From Lysobacter auxotrophicus (lineage in GTDB: Bacteria; Pseudomonadota; Gammaproteobacteria; Xanthomonadales; Xanthomonadaceae): a stretch of 64,000 nt of DNA. The first letter of the stretch is position 1; every line of letters begins with the position of its first letter. Shown here one piece after another: positions 1-5,625 of the stretch. A program made the position numbers and the translations under genes. The stretch covers positions 682,001 through 746,000 of the forward strand of contig NZ_AP027041.1 of NCBI RefSeq assembly GCF_027924565.1, written 5' to 3'. A model generated the notes under the pieces. The model was not told the origin of the DNA. It saw nothing but the letters and a program-made list of their open reading frames with translations, and ran no database searches.

Positions 1-1578
1 TACGACGACCAGGGCAACCTCGGCAACAAGAATGGTCTGGTCCACAAATTCGACTATGACAATCGCCTGCGTGAAGTGGTCGGTCGCGAGACATACCGCT
101 ACGACGGCTACGGACGACGCGTCCTGGCGCGACAACCGACCACGGGCGACATCATGTCGGTCTACGATCAGGGCGGCGTGCTGCGCCATCAGCAGAATCA
201 ACGCGAAGCCAAGTCGTACGACTTCATTACGCTCAACGGCAGCTTGGTGGCGAGGGTCAGCAATGGGGTCTCGCCGAGCGTGCCAGTGATTACTGCGCCG
301 AGCTACAGCACCAGCGGCAGCTATACGGTGCAGTGGAGTGTAGTCCCGGGCACGACCTCGTATGAAGTCCAGGAAGCTGCGAGTGGCGGTGCCTGGCAGA
401 CCCTCTACGTCGGAGCAGGCCTCAGCCAGGCGGTGGCTGGACGGGCGACGGGCAGTTACGGATACCAGGCGCGTGCATGCAATGCCACGGGCTGCAGTGC
501 ATGGAGCGCCGCGTCGACTGTGAGCGTTCAGCTCCCGCCCGCCGGGCCGCCCAGCCTCACCGTCCCGGCTACGGGCATCAATGGCGCATATGCCGTGAGT
601 TGGGGCACTGTGGCAGGGGCCACGAGCTACGCCCTGGAAGAAAGCTTCAATGGTGGTGGATGGACCGCGGCGTACAACGGGGGCGCGCAGAGCACCGCGT
701 TCAGCGGCAGAGCCGTGGGCAGCTACGGGTATCGCATCAAGGCATGCAATCCGGCCGGCTGCAGCGGCTACTCCGCGACGGGTACGGTGCAGGTGATCTA
801 CCCGCCCGCCGCCGCCCCGTCGTTGTCGGCACCAGGCAGCAGCGCTACTGGCACCTTCACGGTGAGCTGGACGTCGGTGGATGGTTCGACCAGCTATCAG
901 CTGGACGAAAGCGCCAACGGAGGGACGTGGAACCAGATCCAGAACACCGCTGCGACCAGCACCGCGCCAACAGGGAAGGTTAACGGCAGCTACGCTTATC
1001 GTGTTCGTGCATGCAACGGCGCAGGCTGTGGGGCGTACTCGGGCACGGCGATCACGACGGTGCTGCTGCCGCCGAGCGCGACGCCTTCTCTCAGTGTGCC
1101 GGCCAGCAGCACGACCGGCAGTTACGCCGTGAGCTGGACGAGCGTTGCTTCGGCGAGCGTTTACCAGCTGGAAGAGCAGGTCAACGGTGGTGGCTGGACT
1201 CTGGTCCAAAACGATGCAAACACCAGCCGCGCCTTCAGCGGCAAGGGAACCGCGAATTTTGGCTACCACGCGCGAGGCTGCAATCCGTCCGGCTGCGGAC
1301 CGTGGAGTGGTGTGGCTACCGTCAGCGTCATCGTGCCTCCGCCAATGCCCGCGAGCGTGAGCGGATACGCTGAGTTCATAGATTCGCGAATGAAGGAATA
1401 CAGCCTCTGGTGGGCCGATTCGGCGGGCGCTACGTACTACGAACTGAGGAGCACCACGACGCACTACTCCGGGCCCAACACCTATTTCGACTTCACCGGA
1501 GTCGGAACCAAGACGTTCTCGGTGCGAGCCTGCAATTCGGCAGGGTGCTCGGACTGGAAGGCCGGACCGACCTTGTAG
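1..1578 (+). CDS. RHS/YD-repeat protein with tandem FN3-like domains, 5'-truncated by the window
   Basis: The reading frame is open from base 1, so the gene begins to the left. The first 80 or so residues contain YD-type RHS repeats (YDDQGNL, FDYDNRLREV, YRYDGYGRRV). They are followed by four clear repeats of about 90 residues and a fifth divergent copy. Each has the pattern G-[ST]-Y-x-V-x-W near its start and an AC-N-x-x-GC-x-x-[YW]-S motif near its end, which is FN3-like and probably forms one disulfide. The frame stops at 1578 just after the fifth repeat, with no RHS core (IGRF...DP) and no variable tip. Xanthomonad RHS proteins of this type normally continue into the core. This copy is therefore either C-terminally truncated or split from the next gene. 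Composition is less GC-rich than the chromosome to the right. Likely a surface or secreted protein; function not known. Confidence 0.8.
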   Translation, partial: YDDQGNLGNKNGLVHKFDYDNRLREVVGRETYRYDGYGRRVLARQPTTGDIMSVYDQGGVLRHQQNQREAKSYDFITLNGSLVARVSNGVSPSVPVITAPSYSTSGSYTVQWSVVPGTTSYEVQEAASGGAWQTLYVGAGLSQAVAGRATGSYGYQARACNATGCSAWSAASTVSVQLPPAGPPSLTVPATGINGAYAVSWGTVAGATSYALEESFNGGGWTAAYNGGAQSTAFSGRAVGSYGYRIKACNPAGCSGYSATGTVQVIYPPAAAPSLSAPGSSATGTFTVSWTSVDGSTSYQLDESANGGTWNQIQNTAATSTAPTGKVNGSYAYRVRACNGAGCGAYSGTAITTVLLPPSATPSLSVPASSTTGSYAVSWTSVASASVYQLEEQVNGGGWTLVQNDANTSRAFSGKGTANFGYHARGCNPSGCGPWSGVATVSVIVPPPMPASVSGYAEFIDSRMKEYSLWWADSAGATYYELRSTTTHYSGPNTYFDFTGVGTKTFSVRACNSAGCSDWKAGPTL

Positions 1579-1661: not shown

Positions 1662-2630
1662 ATGGCGACGAACAGGAAGCTCATCCTCGCAGTGCTGTCA
1701 TGTGCTCTGGCATTGAGCGCGAACGCTGCTGCCGCACAAACCGTGGTTTACATCCACACCGATGCGCTTGGCACGCCCGTGGTGATGACCGATGCCAATC
1801 GAAATGTCGTCGAGCGCAGTGAGTACGAACCGTTCGGCAAGGTGCTCAACAGGCCGTTACGCGACGGCCCAGGCTACACCGGCCATGTAGAGGACGCGGC
1901 GACCGGGTTGAGCTACATGCAGCAGCGCTACTACGACCCCGATATCGGACGATTCCTTTCGGTCGACCCCGTTTCGGCCGAAACGAGGATGGGGGGCAAC
2001 TTCAACCGCTACAAGTACGCGAGCAACAATCCCTTCTCTTACACCGACCCGGACGGTCGCTACGACTGCCAGGCACAGGATGATCAATGCGCCCAAACAC
2101 GGCGTGCGATGAGCATCCTTCGTCGCGCACGGCTAAGTTCTACCGGTAATGCGCGAATCGTGCTTAACAACGTCGTCAGGTTGCTGGGGACGGAAGGGGA
2201 TGGGAACGGCGTGGTGATCAGGGATACCTCCGATGCCATTGGGGGTGGGTGGATGAATCTGCAGAAGGGAGGGGTGCTTTCCGTGAATTTCGCAAGCGTA
2301 AACGCTTCTTCAGCTAGTCGCGGGAAGGGTGTTCAAGACTTCATGGTCGCGTCGGTAATCGCGCACGAAGGGTGGCACGGTTCATGGGACAAGTTGACCT
2401 ACGCCGCAGGAGTGAATGATCCGTGGAGCCGATCGTTTGCAATGGACAATGAGCGGCGCGCCAGCATCACGGAAGGCATCGTGGCCCAGGCGATCCAGTT
2501 TGACCACCCGCAGGGATTCTGGACCAAGAAGAATGGCTTCGACATGAAGCCGATAAACAAGCAAGCGGCGGAGTCCGTCGCAATCTATTGTGCTGCTCTG
2601 GCGAGGACGGGTTTGCCATGTTCAAACTGA
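1662..2630 (+). CDS. Detached RHS-core protein with signal peptide and HEGWH metallopeptidase-like C-terminal tip
   Basis: A 322-residue protein. Residues 1-25 are a Sec signal peptide (MATNRKLILAVLSCALALSA, then an AAAAQ cleavage region). Residues 28-130 are the RHS-associated core: YIHTDALGTPV, EPFGK, GYTGHVEDAATGLSYMQQRYY, DIGRFLSVDP, NRYKYASNNP, with YTDPDGR marking the end of the core. The 190-residue tip is unlike the core and carries HEGWH at 235-239, an HExxH zinc signature, with acidic residues at 264 and 271 that could supply a third ligand. Normally such a core ends a very large RHS protein; here it is a free secreted polypeptide. The start at 1662 has GGGG six bases upstream; 1650 is an in-frame alternative. 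The 3' end overlaps the next gene by 13 bases. Inference: a secreted toxin-like metallopeptidase; activity is unproven. Confidence 0.75.
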   Translation: MATNRKLILAVLSCALALSANAAAAQTVVYIHTDALGTPVVMTDANRNVVERSEYEPFGKVLNRPLRDGPGYTGHVEDAATGLSYMQQRYYDPDIGRFLSVDPVSAETRMGGNFNRYKYASNNPFSYTDPDGRYDCQAQDDQCAQTRRAMSILRRARLSSTGNARIVLNNVVRLLGTEGDGNGVVIRDTSDAIGGGWMNLQKGGVLSVNFASVNASSASRGKGVQDFMVASVIAHEGWHGSWDKLTYAAGVNDPWSRSFAMDNERRASITEGIVAQAIQFDHPQGFWTKKNGFDMKPINKQAAESVAIYCAALARTGLPCSN

Positions 2631-3046
2631 GTACGTCAGCTTTGATCGTATTGACGATTGCGTTCTGCGCAGCTTCCTGCAACGGGGTTGCGAAAGACCC
2701 ACCGCACGTAACCGTGGATACGCTGCTTGCCAAGGGCGCGGAGTTCAACGCAACGGACGTGTCGCTCGCCGGCTGCCTACAACCGAGCATGCACGGCCTG
2801 ACCCTCTATACCTGCCCACCAGGAGACACGGGCATTCCGGTGCTATTTGCCAATAGCATGGATTCGGCGCATCGTTCCTGGCTTTACTCAAAGACGATGC
2901 AAGCCGGTCTCGATAAGAAGAAGCCACTCATGGCAACGTTATGCGGCTCTTATCACGCAACCGCCGATGGCAAGGATCGCTGGCTCGAAGTTGTCGCTTT
3001 CACAGTGGGCGCTGAGCATTTCGACACCGGAACGACCTGCCGTTAG
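2618..3046 (+). CDS. Small lipoprotein overlapping the RHS metallopeptidase gene; possible immunity protein
   Basis: A 142-residue protein beginning MFKLSTSALIVLTIAFCAAS-C. This is a lipoprotein signal peptide with lipobox AASC and lipidated Cys21, so the mature protein should be anchored in an envelope membrane facing the periplasm. The mature part has cysteines in GCLQPS, YTCPPG, TLCGSY and at the C-terminus (TTCR), suggesting disulfides. I do not recognise a family. The start codon lies inside the preceding RHS-core gene (overlap 2618-2630), so the two are probably translationally coupled. An exported enzyme followed directly by a lipoprotein made from the same transcript fits a toxin-immunity pair acting in the periplasm. 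That role is inferred only from position and localisation. Confidence 0.7.
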   Translation: MFKLSTSALIVLTIAFCAASCNGVAKDPPHVTVDTLLAKGAEFNATDVSLAGCLQPSMHGLTLYTCPPGDTGIPVLFANSMDSAHRSWLYSKTMQAGLDKKKPLMATLCGSYHATADGKDRWLEVVAFTVGAEHFDTGTTCR

Positions 3047-3460: not shown

Positions 3461-4513
3461 TCAGTCCCGATGCAAACTTTCAGGACGGAGCTGTGTATAG
3501 CGCTTCAACTCTTGCCAACTTTCGTGGAGCGTGACGGTTGCAACCTGTTCGATGCTGTAACCCTGTTCGAACAGGCGGGACGTCGCCTCGTGGCGAAGGT
3601 CGTGGAAATGAAGATCTTCTATTCCAAGGGCGACGCATGCGCGCCGGAACGCAGTTCCGATCGAATCTGGCTTGAAGGGGAAGATTCTCTGCCGCTCTTT
3701 CGTAGGCTGGCGATCGACCAGGGGCCACATGTCGCCAAGCAGTGGGAAGCGCTTGTGATTGCCTTCCTTTGCCCGTGGATGCTTTGCATCTCTGAGTAAG
3801 GCCGTCCTGGTGGGCGCGTCTAGATCTTCCCAAAGAAGTCTTGTGATTTCGCCCTCGCGCTTGGCGGTCCCGATGGCGAAATCGACTATGTCTGCCATCG
3901 GCAGCTTCATTCGCCAAGCATTGGTATGGAAATGCGCCTTCAATCTCGAGAGCTCTTCGGGGGTTGGGCGTCGATTGCGCTTGACCGACTTGGCAACCAA
4001 TCTGACTAGGCGCAGCGAAGGACGTGCCTCGGCCACCGGGTCGTGAAGCAAGGTGAGCTTGCCCATCGACTTGGACACCTTGAGCATTTCCGACAGGTAG
4101 CCCAGTTCGACATTCATGGTGGCGCCACTGCAGGCTGGTACGCGGTGCCCGTCCTTGTTGATGTGCTCGCCCTGGCGCCTCTTCCGCGTGTGTTCGATGA
4201 CGTCTGCGGCTGTGAGCTTGCTGGCGACTTTGTCCCCGAGTCCCTCCTTGACCCTCGACAAATTCCCGCGTTGAGTGAGGCTGATTCGTTTCAGTTGGCC
4301 GACGTAGGTGCTGTACCAATCCACGAGGTCCGCGACAGTGGCTCCGTCATGCTCAGCGACACCTCGAGCCTCCTGGTCCGCTAGTTCGCGCTCGATTCGA
4401 TCCGCCCAGGTGCGGGCAGCACTCTTCGTCGGAAAGGTCCGCGATTTGGGCGCGAAGCCTTTTCGGCGGACAATAGCCCTCCACCGATCACCGCGCTGCT
4501 GAAAGGTCGCCAT
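3461..4513 (-). CDS. Tyrosine-type site-specific integrase next to dusA
   Basis: A 350-residue phage-type integrase starting MATFQQRGDRWRAIVRRKGF, an AP2-like arm-binding N-terminus. The catalytic set is intact: Arg219 in TAKREGEITRL, His304-Arg307 in HDLRHEATSRL, His330 in TLHESW and the nucleophile Tyr339 in KRYTQL. An upstream in-frame start (4606) would add 31 residues that do not look like an integrase and would run into the dusA junction; 4513 begins the family's usual first motif. The gene is oriented away from dusA, with its start about 95 bases from the dusA coding frame. That is the known layout of integrases that target the 5' end of dusA. It should catalyse insertion and excision of the element extending to the left. 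Confidence 0.9.
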   Translation of the reverse strand: MATFQQRGDRWRAIVRRKGFAPKSRTFPTKSAARTWADRIERELADQEARGVAEHDGATVADLVDWYSTYVGQLKRISLTQRGNLSRVKEGLGDKVASKLTAADVIEHTRKRRQGEHINKDGHRVPACSGATMNVELGYLSEMLKVSKSMGKLTLLHDPVAEARPSLRLVRLVAKSVKRNRRPTPEELSRLKAHFHTNAWRMKLPMADIVDFAIGTAKREGEITRLLWEDLDAPTRTALLRDAKHPRAKEGNHKRFPLLGDMWPLVDRQPTKERQRIFPFKPDSIGTAFRRACVALGIEDLHFHDLRHEATSRLFEQGYSIEQVATVTLHESWQELKRYTQLRPESLHRD

Positions 4514-4514
4514 C

Positions 4515-4550
4515 GTTGTACCAGATTGAGATGGTACACAAATGGTACAC
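4515..4550. promoter_or_regulatory. Three TGGTACA-like sites at the integrase start / dusA junction
   Basis: ATGGTACAC occurs twice in direct orientation (4531-4539 and 4542-4550). An inverted partial copy, GTTGTACCAG (4515-4524), overlaps the first bases upstream of the integrase start. Clustered short repeats next to an integrase gene at an insertion junction are typical of integrase arm or directionality-factor binding sites, or of an operator for the integrase promoter. Which of these applies cannot be decided from sequence. Confidence 0.45.
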
Positions 4551-4608
4551 CGAGACCAGGAAATGGCGGGAAATTTCGGGAACCCGCGGGATCCATAGAG
4601 ATGCATAA

Positions 4609-5625
4609 GTGGCTGTAGATAAACAGAAATCGTTGAATCCGCAGGGTGTCCGATTGTCGGTTGCGCCCATGATGGACTGGACCGACACGCACTGCCGTGT
4701 CTTCCACCGCCTGCTGGCGCCGCATGCGCGGCTGTACACCGAGATGGTGCATGCGAACGCGGTGATCCATGGCGATCGCGCGCGGTTGCTAGCGATGGAT
4801 CCGGTGGAGCATCCGGTGGCGTTGCAGCTTGGCGGCAGCGAGCCGGAGCTGCTCGGCGCCGCGGCGAAGATCGGCGCGGAGTACGGGTTCGACGAGGTCA
4901 ACCTCAACTGCGGCTGCCCGTCCGACCGCGTGCAGGCGGGGCGTTTCGGCGCGTGCCTGATGCGCGAGCCGCAACTCGTCGCCGATAGCGTCGCGGCGAT
5001 GGTCGAAAGCTGCGACGTGCCGGTCACGGTGAAATGCCGCCTGGGCGTCGACGACGACCACGACTGGGATCGCTTCCTCGCCTTCATCGACACGGTCGCG
5101 AACGCCGGGTGCGGCATGTTCGTGATCCATGCGCGCAACGCGTGGCTGCAGGGACTTTCGCCGAAGGAAAATCGCGAGGTTCCGCCACTGCGTTACGACT
5201 GGGCGTATCGCCTGAAGCAGGAGCGCCCGCACCTGCAGATCGTCGTCAATGGCGGCATCGCGACGCAGGACGAAGCGACAGCGCATCTGGCGCACACCGA
5301 CGGCGCGATGCTCGGCCGGGCTGCCTACCACGATCCGTACCTGCTGCATCGACTCGACGTCGCCTGGTTCGGTGGTGAACTGCGCACGCGCGGCGAACTG
5401 TTGCGCGCGCTTCGACCGTACATCGAGGACCAGCTTGCGCGCGGCGTGTACCTCAAGCACATCACGCGACACCTGCTCGGCCTGTTCGCCGGCGAACGCG
5501 GAGGGCGTGCGTTCCGCCAGGTGCTCAGCGAAGGCGCGCACAAGCCGGGCGCGGACTGGTCGCTGATCGAGCAGGCGATCGCGATCACCGAATCCTTCGC
5601 CGGCGAGCGCGTGGACGCGGCATGA
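4609..5625 (+). CDS. dusA: tRNA-dihydrouridine(20/20a) synthase DusA
   Basis: FMN-dependent reduction of uridine 20/20a in the D-loop of tRNAs. The 338-residue product has the DusA signatures LSVAPMMDWTDTHCR (16-30), LQLGG (73-77), LNCGCPSDRVQAGRFGACLM with catalytic Cys103, HARNAWLQGLSPKENR and VVNGGI. In-frame stop TAA at 4606-4608 forces the start to 4609 (GTG) or a later codon (TTG 4633, GTG 4648). The first dozen codons do not look like a native DusA N-terminus and may be supplied by the integrated element. The integrase gene sits immediately upstream in the opposite direction. The stop overlaps the next gene's start (ATGA), indicating co-translation. Confidence 0.95.
   Translation: MAVDKQKSLNPQGVRLSVAPMMDWTDTHCRVFHRLLAPHARLYTEMVHANAVIHGDRARLLAMDPVEHPVALQLGGSEPELLGAAAKIGAEYGFDEVNLNCGCPSDRVQAGRFGACLMREPQLVADSVAAMVESCDVPVTVKCRLGVDDDHDWDRFLAFIDTVANAGCGMFVIHARNAWLQGLSPKENREVPPLRYDWAYRLKQERPHLQIVVNGGIATQDEATAHLAHTDGAMLGRAAYHDPYLLHRLDVAWFGGELRTRGELLRALRPYIEDQLARGVYLKHITRHLLGLFAGERGGRAFRQVLSEGAHKPGADWSLIEQAIAITESFAGERVDAA

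Follow-up and report, generated by a model that had tools for sequence, protein, structure and literature searches.

The locus at the left end of the window (the whole stretch of DNA analysed, 64,000 nucleotides) probably encodes a split RHS toxin. Its cage would be exported in pieces, the shell being closed by a separate chain that also carries an interchangeable warhead. The locus comprises a shell gene devoid of the RHS core, a gene coding for the core and a variable tip (protein P0001), and a gene coding for a lipoprotein-like protein (P0002). The features are the following.

1..1578, + strand: RHS shell gene, C-terminal part; the whole gene is L031:10362-15578 (1738 aa)
1662..1736, + strand: predicted Sec signal peptide, residues 1-25 of the core-tip protein, read from the sequence; equivalent leaders in relatives
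1737..2066, + strand: RHS core, residues 26-135; TIGR03696 match, aligns with the end of solved RHS cages
2067..2627, + strand: tip, predicted metallopeptidase toxin, residues 136-322; six-sequence alignment and tip-family collection
2364..2378, + strand: HEGWH motif, residues 235-239, seen in the sequence; invariant in the six-sequence alignment
2451-2453, + strand: candidate third ligand, E264; invariant in the six-sequence alignment
2618..3046, + strand: lipoprotein-like exported small protein, 142 aa, candidate immunity protein; 13-base overlap with the tip gene
3461..4606, - strand: phage-type integrase gene (Pfam Phage_integrase), between the toxin element and the dus-like gene
4609-5625: dus-like gene (tRNA-dihydrouridine synthase), named by eye

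The core-tip protein and its coreless shell

The core-tip ORF starts with an ATG at 1662 and its stop codon ends at 2630, within the window. The protein has 322 residues. Its hydrophobic leader, read from the sequence, reaches ...SANAAAA|Q26. Here as elsewhere in this work, leaders were recognized with simple hydrophobicity rules or by eye. The mature part begins with the RHS core, matched by Pfam RHS (residues 29-63, E = 2.6e-9) and by TIGR03696, Rhs_assc_core (residues 55-132, E = 1.1e-22). This confirms the preliminary description of a 322-residue protein with a Sec-type leader and a complete RHS core. The Rhs_assc_core match is the only one in the whole 4.16-Mb genome. The C-terminal autocleavage motif of RHS toxins, PxxxxDPxGL (PMC8765631), is partly present as P124xxxxD129PxG132, with an arginine in place of the leucine.

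The same description called this core an orphan. This was wrong: the gene directly upstream encodes an RHS shell that lacks the core and carries a leader of its own. The shell protein has 1738 residues. Its YD shell extends to about residue 1299 and is followed by FN3-like repeats, without RHS core. Only the last 1578 bases of the gene are inside the window, and an 83-base gap separates its stop (1578) from the core-tip start (1662). The shell strand '...YVYLGGSLVA...' of one-chain relatives continues directly into '...YxHTDALGSP...'. At the window's locus, the first stretch closes the shell ahead of the FN3-like repeats and the second comes after the leader of the next gene.

Alignments with solved RHS cages place the two parts side by side. 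Residues 27-132 of P0001 align with the C-terminal part of these cages (ca 105 residues), and a profile built from 15 coreless shells aligns directly before this segment, with positions 1826-2003 of 9pt5 (core at 2038-2148) and 1760-1924 of 8r54 (core at 1980-2084). As the alignments are consecutive, the shell and the core-tip chain look like successive parts of one known fold. The two chains would join in trans. In RhsA, the C-terminal conserved region has 14 repeats, and is thus longer than the core considered here; it spirals into the cocoon and seals it (PMC8765631).

Structure predictions bear little on this point. The AlphaFold model of the core-tip chain has a mean pLDDT of 58. In a model of the one-chain relative L155, the shell is confident and matches RHS cages, and confidence is low in the later core (residues 801-840). 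Comparison of the core alone and in the one-chain context shows fair confidence for the first 40-50 residues or so and low confidence afterwards in both cases. Hence, the models do not discriminate between the split and the one-chain arrangement.

The arrangement is conserved in relatives

P0001 has matches in 118 of 148 relative genomes, mostly through the core among the matches listed. We surveyed 59 loci from the hit lists, mostly chosen for short cores or shells, together with 80 named loci, the best 80 of 567 matches. A coreless shell was counted when an ORF of more than 500 residues reached shell position 1290 or beyond. After removal of copies with identical last 150 residues, 40 coreless shells and 65 shell plus core ORFs were kept. 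These are related by descent, and the counts below are of non-independent cases.

The FN3-like part was matched by BLAST in 39 of the 40 distinct coreless shells (the exception is L143) versus none of the 65 shell plus core ORFs. An ORF with leader, core and tip is found at most 3.5 kb downstream of 39 of the 40 coreless shells. The hydrophobicity rule detects 38 of these leaders; L057 was counted although it is below the rule (1.61 for a threshold of 1.8). In L124, 3.2 kb separate the shell from the leader-core ORF. In 21 of the 40 cases, a possible start of the core ORF (in-frame ATG or GTG) overlaps the shell stop by 4 nucleotides. The shells themselves carry a leader-like segment in 31 of the 32 coreless cases matching from near the shell N-terminus (all but L162, with a lenient rule). 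Newly fetched coreless FN3 shells, obtained from a shell search, are followed by a leader-core gene in eight of nine cases. Two observations count against a split cage: L082 is a coreless shell without downstream core, and for L039_68, L045_39, L053_65 and L054_35 no shell is in view upstream of the leader-core gene.

Within the best 80 of 567 loci, 109 core ORFs are found: 51 are one-chain, 22 are leader-cores that have an FN3 shell close by, 20 were flagged as leader-cores without FN3 shell and 16 are of other types. Among the 20 flagged, L126 and L172 have false leaders and L143 has a coreless shell of non-FN3 type; others are at locus edges.

The core of the leader-core genes is mostly 56-74% identical to that of the window, and the leader joins it at a near-constant core residue. 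All 33 core-tip proteins compared (the window's and 32 relatives) match TIGR03696, and their tips fall into 26 similarity groups. Pfam recognizes TseH-like, M23, Tox-GHH and HNH domains among these tips, with one member each, the last two perhaps in the same member.

These data bear on the proposal, made in the preliminary description, of a free-standing exported toxin. The 322-residue protein would act alone, its core would be a remnant and the lipoprotein would be the immunity protein. The protein does have its own leader and an exported-looking partner downstream, and some leader-core genes are far from any shell. However, a remnant would hardly explain that the core is kept while the tips diverge so widely, that such a gene is found behind 39 of 40 coreless shells and that the same segment ends the shell in solved cages. 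The proposal is thus not supported, and we consider it unlikely. The protein is better described as the missing C-terminal core of the neighboring coreless shell.

Leader-core genes away from a shell

The complete chromosome of S. maltophilia SJTL3 has a single match to a shell-plus-FN3 query, and this match is a coreless shell. No core ORF was found in ca 8.4 kb downstream of it. Core matches on the chromosome number 11. Intact leader-core genes account for five of them (three upstream in an array, two far away) and interrupted leader-cores for another three. A further match is partial, in a frame of 299 aa, and the last two are distant matches inside larger ORFs.

Sixteen named loci had been flagged as having a leader-core but no FN3 shell. 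Twelve of these, from 11 genomes, were examined. A shell match is present in all 11, and a clear coreless shell in eight. In the other three, an FN3 shell ends at a contig end (G464), the sequence is cut before the shell can be judged (G458) or only a weak match is seen (G466).

A wider reading is that a family-wide class of RHS weapons is built outside the cytoplasm from two or three chains, each exported by Sec on its own. The open ends would be recognizable by their FN3-like tails, and a single coreless shell would be loaded in trans by any of several exported core-warhead chains, some of them encoded at a distance. We give this wider reading barely better than an even chance.

Arrays and unlinked copies, as in SJTL3 with its five intact and three interrupted leader-cores for one coreless FN3 shell, would also be expected of silent cassettes, in which tip and immunity genes form a reservoir for recombination into an RHS gene, as described for rhs orphans. 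The short cores of one-chain type L041, L042, L050, L061, L063 and L068 look as true orphan tips would: they are leaderless and begin inside the shell. The leader-core genes, on the other hand, each have a leader at the near-constant position described above, and the gene beside the shell has remained a distinct ORF, whose possible start often overlaps the stop of the shell gene. Silent storage is distinctly unlikely as an explanation of the window's locus.

The tip and its exported-looking partner

Among 397 genomes of the order, 25 have the tip family of P0001, which occurs on both one-chain and split RHS proteins. We collected 28 distinct tips, fragments included. HExxH is present in 24 of them. 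The fragments L113 and L120 miss the site, and L105 and the fragment L118 lack the motif. A later ExxA/G/S follows in all 24 HExxH tips, although so loose a pattern may also arise by chance. In the window's tip, the motif is HEGWH at residues 235-239 (bases 2364-2378), as first noticed. An alignment of six sequences, including the window's, shows H235, E236, H239 and E264 to be invariant, a pattern expected of a gluzincin-like metallopeptidase. This invariance and the 24 HExxH tips out of 28 argue that HEGWH is not a chance occurrence. Four cysteines of the tip are also invariant in this alignment, which fits an oxidizing compartment.

No Pfam tip-family model matches the P0001 tip at E<=1. 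Fold searches with the low-confidence model (pLDDT 58) gave no zincin match and no clear fold for the tip; HEGWH and E264 are carried by two successive helices in this model. Profile sequence searches of the PDB with the tip and its partner returned nothing credible.

The gene downstream overlaps the tip gene by 13 bases (2618-2630), again as first noticed. P0002 has a hydrophobic leader and a lipobox-like site, AASC21. One crude automatic rule was applied to the ORFs downstream of HExxH tips and of the other tips among the 33 core-tip proteins, whose carriers are of the same kind, the denominators being the tips that have a downstream ORF. An exported-looking ORF was found for 26 of 27 HExxH tips versus 14 of 28 other tips. 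In the first set, the partner of L119 is not exported-looking and L120 has no ORF; in the second, L045_39 has no ORF and the interrupted L037 was omitted. Such a partner suggests that the toxin acts in the periplasm.

The 24 partners of HExxH tips that were written out (23 distinct) have 8-21% identity with P0002. Pfam OmpA, a peptidoglycan-binding family, matches four of the 23 distinct partners. A potempin or OB fold is conceivable for the lipoprotein. A search for P0002 relatives by sequence in 99 genomes found only a second copy in its own genome and one weak hit elsewhere. The link between tip and partner rests on position and not on similarity, and P0002 is a putative immunity protein.

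The second copy is 37% identical to P0002 (G000:C1:3089710-3090111, i.e. L092:9711-10112). It adjoins integrase-like and DNA-methylase-like ORFs, named by eye, in a genome without a second RHS core match. It may represent an orphan immunity gene carried by a mobile element.

These observations support the prediction of a metallopeptidase toxin acting in the periplasm, with an exported immunity protein. Of the earlier proposal of an exported toxin with a periplasmic immunity partner, what stands is that the tip resembles a toxin module and has an exported-looking partner; the part that falls is a toxin acting alone. In the tip family, 24 of 28 tips keep the motif and 26 of 27 the exported-looking neighbor.

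Instead of being a toxin, the tip could serve the producer as a processing or matrix protease. It sits, however, where interchangeable tips sit, and an exported-looking downstream protein is far commoner than for other tips. A protease serving the producer appears very unlikely.

Further break points

A second split occurs near shell residue 551 in several elements. Among the 28 second pieces listed (at least 3 of them copies), 19 have a leader-like segment (value of at least 1.8) just before the shell resumes. In the second piece of L037, a leader-like segment was recognized by eye. Three pieces follow each other in order in L037, L065, L079 and L160, the core-tip gene being interrupted in L037. 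In L084 and L085, the first piece also terminates in FN3-like repeats. A third break is seen near shell residue 898 or so in L034 and L087, where the second piece opens with ca 350 residues, including bacterial Ig (Big_7) domains, before the shell resumes.

In the Frateuria flava genome that contains L191, an array of leader-core genes is interspersed with FN3-like fragments (L226:1-14000). The same genome has, on a separate contig (L225), a coreless shell with its own leader-core gene.

In a shell tree of 81 sequences, 38 of them split, the split state requires 11 changes by a quick method, at least four of which are forced by strong branches, versus 27 with shuffled labels. That the pair is simply a broken one-chain RHS gene is hardly credible: interrupted copies do exist at some loci (L037, L221), but FN3-like repeats and a new leader are found at the break in many genomes, the reading frames are separate and intact across genera, and split shells are spread over the tree in this way.

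Genomic context

Beyond the integrase gene lies the dus-like gene, and dus genes are known to serve as integration sites. A search for exact 14-mer repeats flanking the integrase found none in a 19-kb stretch. The adjacent integrase suggests, at most, that the element is mobile. Concerning secretion, the genome has no match to VipA, the one type VI marker searched. The type II marker PF03934 does hit the genome, but the model is non-specific, as it also rings in 8 of 14 controls.

Proposed assembly

According to the split-toxin reading that we favor, the first gene would produce an exported YD shell of 1738 residues with FN3-like repeats at its end. The second would produce another chain, exported on its own and 297 residues long once the leader is removed, made of the shell-closing core and the toxic tip. 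The third would give an immunity protein that is exported and probably anchored to lipid. Sec would carry both chains through the inner membrane; they would then meet in the periplasm, the core closing the shell around the tip. The complex would finally be released from the producer, its probable route being type II secretion, which is reported for the bacteriocin Bcn-A discussed below. In the target cell, the tip may be freed and act as a zinc metallopeptidase on a periplasmic substrate, and the lipoprotein would shield the producing cell and its kin.

The usual description of an RHS cage is a single chain folded around its toxin, or the TcB/TcC pair. If Sec can export a cage in pieces that are then closed in the periplasm, a single shell could be combined with many warheads and no DNA would have to be rearranged; bacteria lacking a type VI secretion system would also possess a secreted RHS weapon.

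Comparison with known systems

In the literature searched, mostly at overview level, we noticed no split exported RHS cage. T6SS Rhs effectors (RhsA, Tse5, Tse15) have the same C-terminal core segment. They are one chain carried by T6SS parts, whereas here both chains have leaders and the genome has no VipA match. RHS/YD polymorphic toxins also share the core and the variable tip; instead of their single chain, two ORFs are found here, each with a leader. Orphan rhs-CT modules consist of a short core, a tip and an immunity gene; such modules are named in PMC11067744. The core-tip gene resembles them, but here it has a leader of its own and a partner shell that lacks the core.

TcB/TcC is also an RHS cage made of two polypeptides, the second of which (YenC in the YenB/YenC pair) is composed of a core and a variable toxin, and YenC3, encoded at an orphan locus, forms a complex with the same YenB (excerpts of PMC11067744). 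Differences are that YenC proteins share ca 680 conserved residues, against ca 107 here, and that each chain here has its own leader.

HExxH peptidase domains are known at RHS C-termini, as HopH1-like, Tox-MPTase1-5 and PVC-metallopeptidase domains (listed in part of PMC3482391); the window's tip was compared with them by Pfam only, with no model at E<=1. PAAR-Tse2 of Stenotrophomonas rhizophila, as described in part of PMC13340143, combines a predicted metalloproteinase effector with a PotempinA-like immunity protein having a signal peptide. The likeness is in the predicted metalloproteinase and the exported immunity protein. The carrier differs, since it is PAAR/T6SS.

The closest system is Bcn-A of Xanthomonas perforans, taken here from excerpts of its report (PMC7259588). 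Its locus encodes a 1398-residue RHS protein (ORFA), ORF2 (124 residues), ORF3 (100 residues), ORF4 (290 residues) and the immunity protein ORF5 (145 residues). ORF4 has a signal peptide and, according to the discussion, some identity to WapA/RhsA. Activity is abolished by deletion of ORFA, ORF2 or ORF4 and reduced by deletion of ORF3. It is found in the supernatant and lost in an xpsD mutant, showing dependence on type II secretion. The active material is mostly above 100 kDa in a figure legend, the text also giving 50 kDa and higher. Some statements of these excerpts count against parts of the split-cage reading: the bcnA product is described as devoid of signal sequence, its residues 1309-1398 are modeled as a barrel cap, and ORF4 is predicted to have two transmembrane helices and assigned to delivery or processing. 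In the excerpts, ORF4 is not described as a missing cage core.

A large RHS protein, a signal-peptide protein of ca 290 residues with RHS similarity and a small downstream gene are common to Bcn-A and to the window's locus. That ORFA is coreless is deduced from the layout. A segment of ORF4 printed in the report shares 11 of 18 residues (E 0.002) with the tip of L081, a split relative. Bcn-A differs by ORF2 and ORF3, located between shell and ORF4; the window's locus has the 83-base gap and an HExxH tip.

Relatives of Xanthomonas type were also inspected: L143 and L156, named Xanthomonas, and L033, L038, L055 and L083, which are near them in the tree. Their shells have 1401-1443 residues from stop to stop and leader-like N-termini. 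Five of the gaps between shell and core were read. Those of L038, L055, L143 and L156 contain two small leader-bearing ORFs of 101-126 residues, and that of L033 contains one. In size and place, the pairs at L038:7718-8412, L143:8163-8841 and L156:8129-8823 correspond to ORF2 and ORF3.

The window's element is probably a relative of the proven bacteriocin Bcn-A, without ORF2 and ORF3. If the split-cage reading is correct, it offers a testable mechanism for Bcn-A, in which ORF4 would provide cage closure and warhead instead of being a delivery helper.
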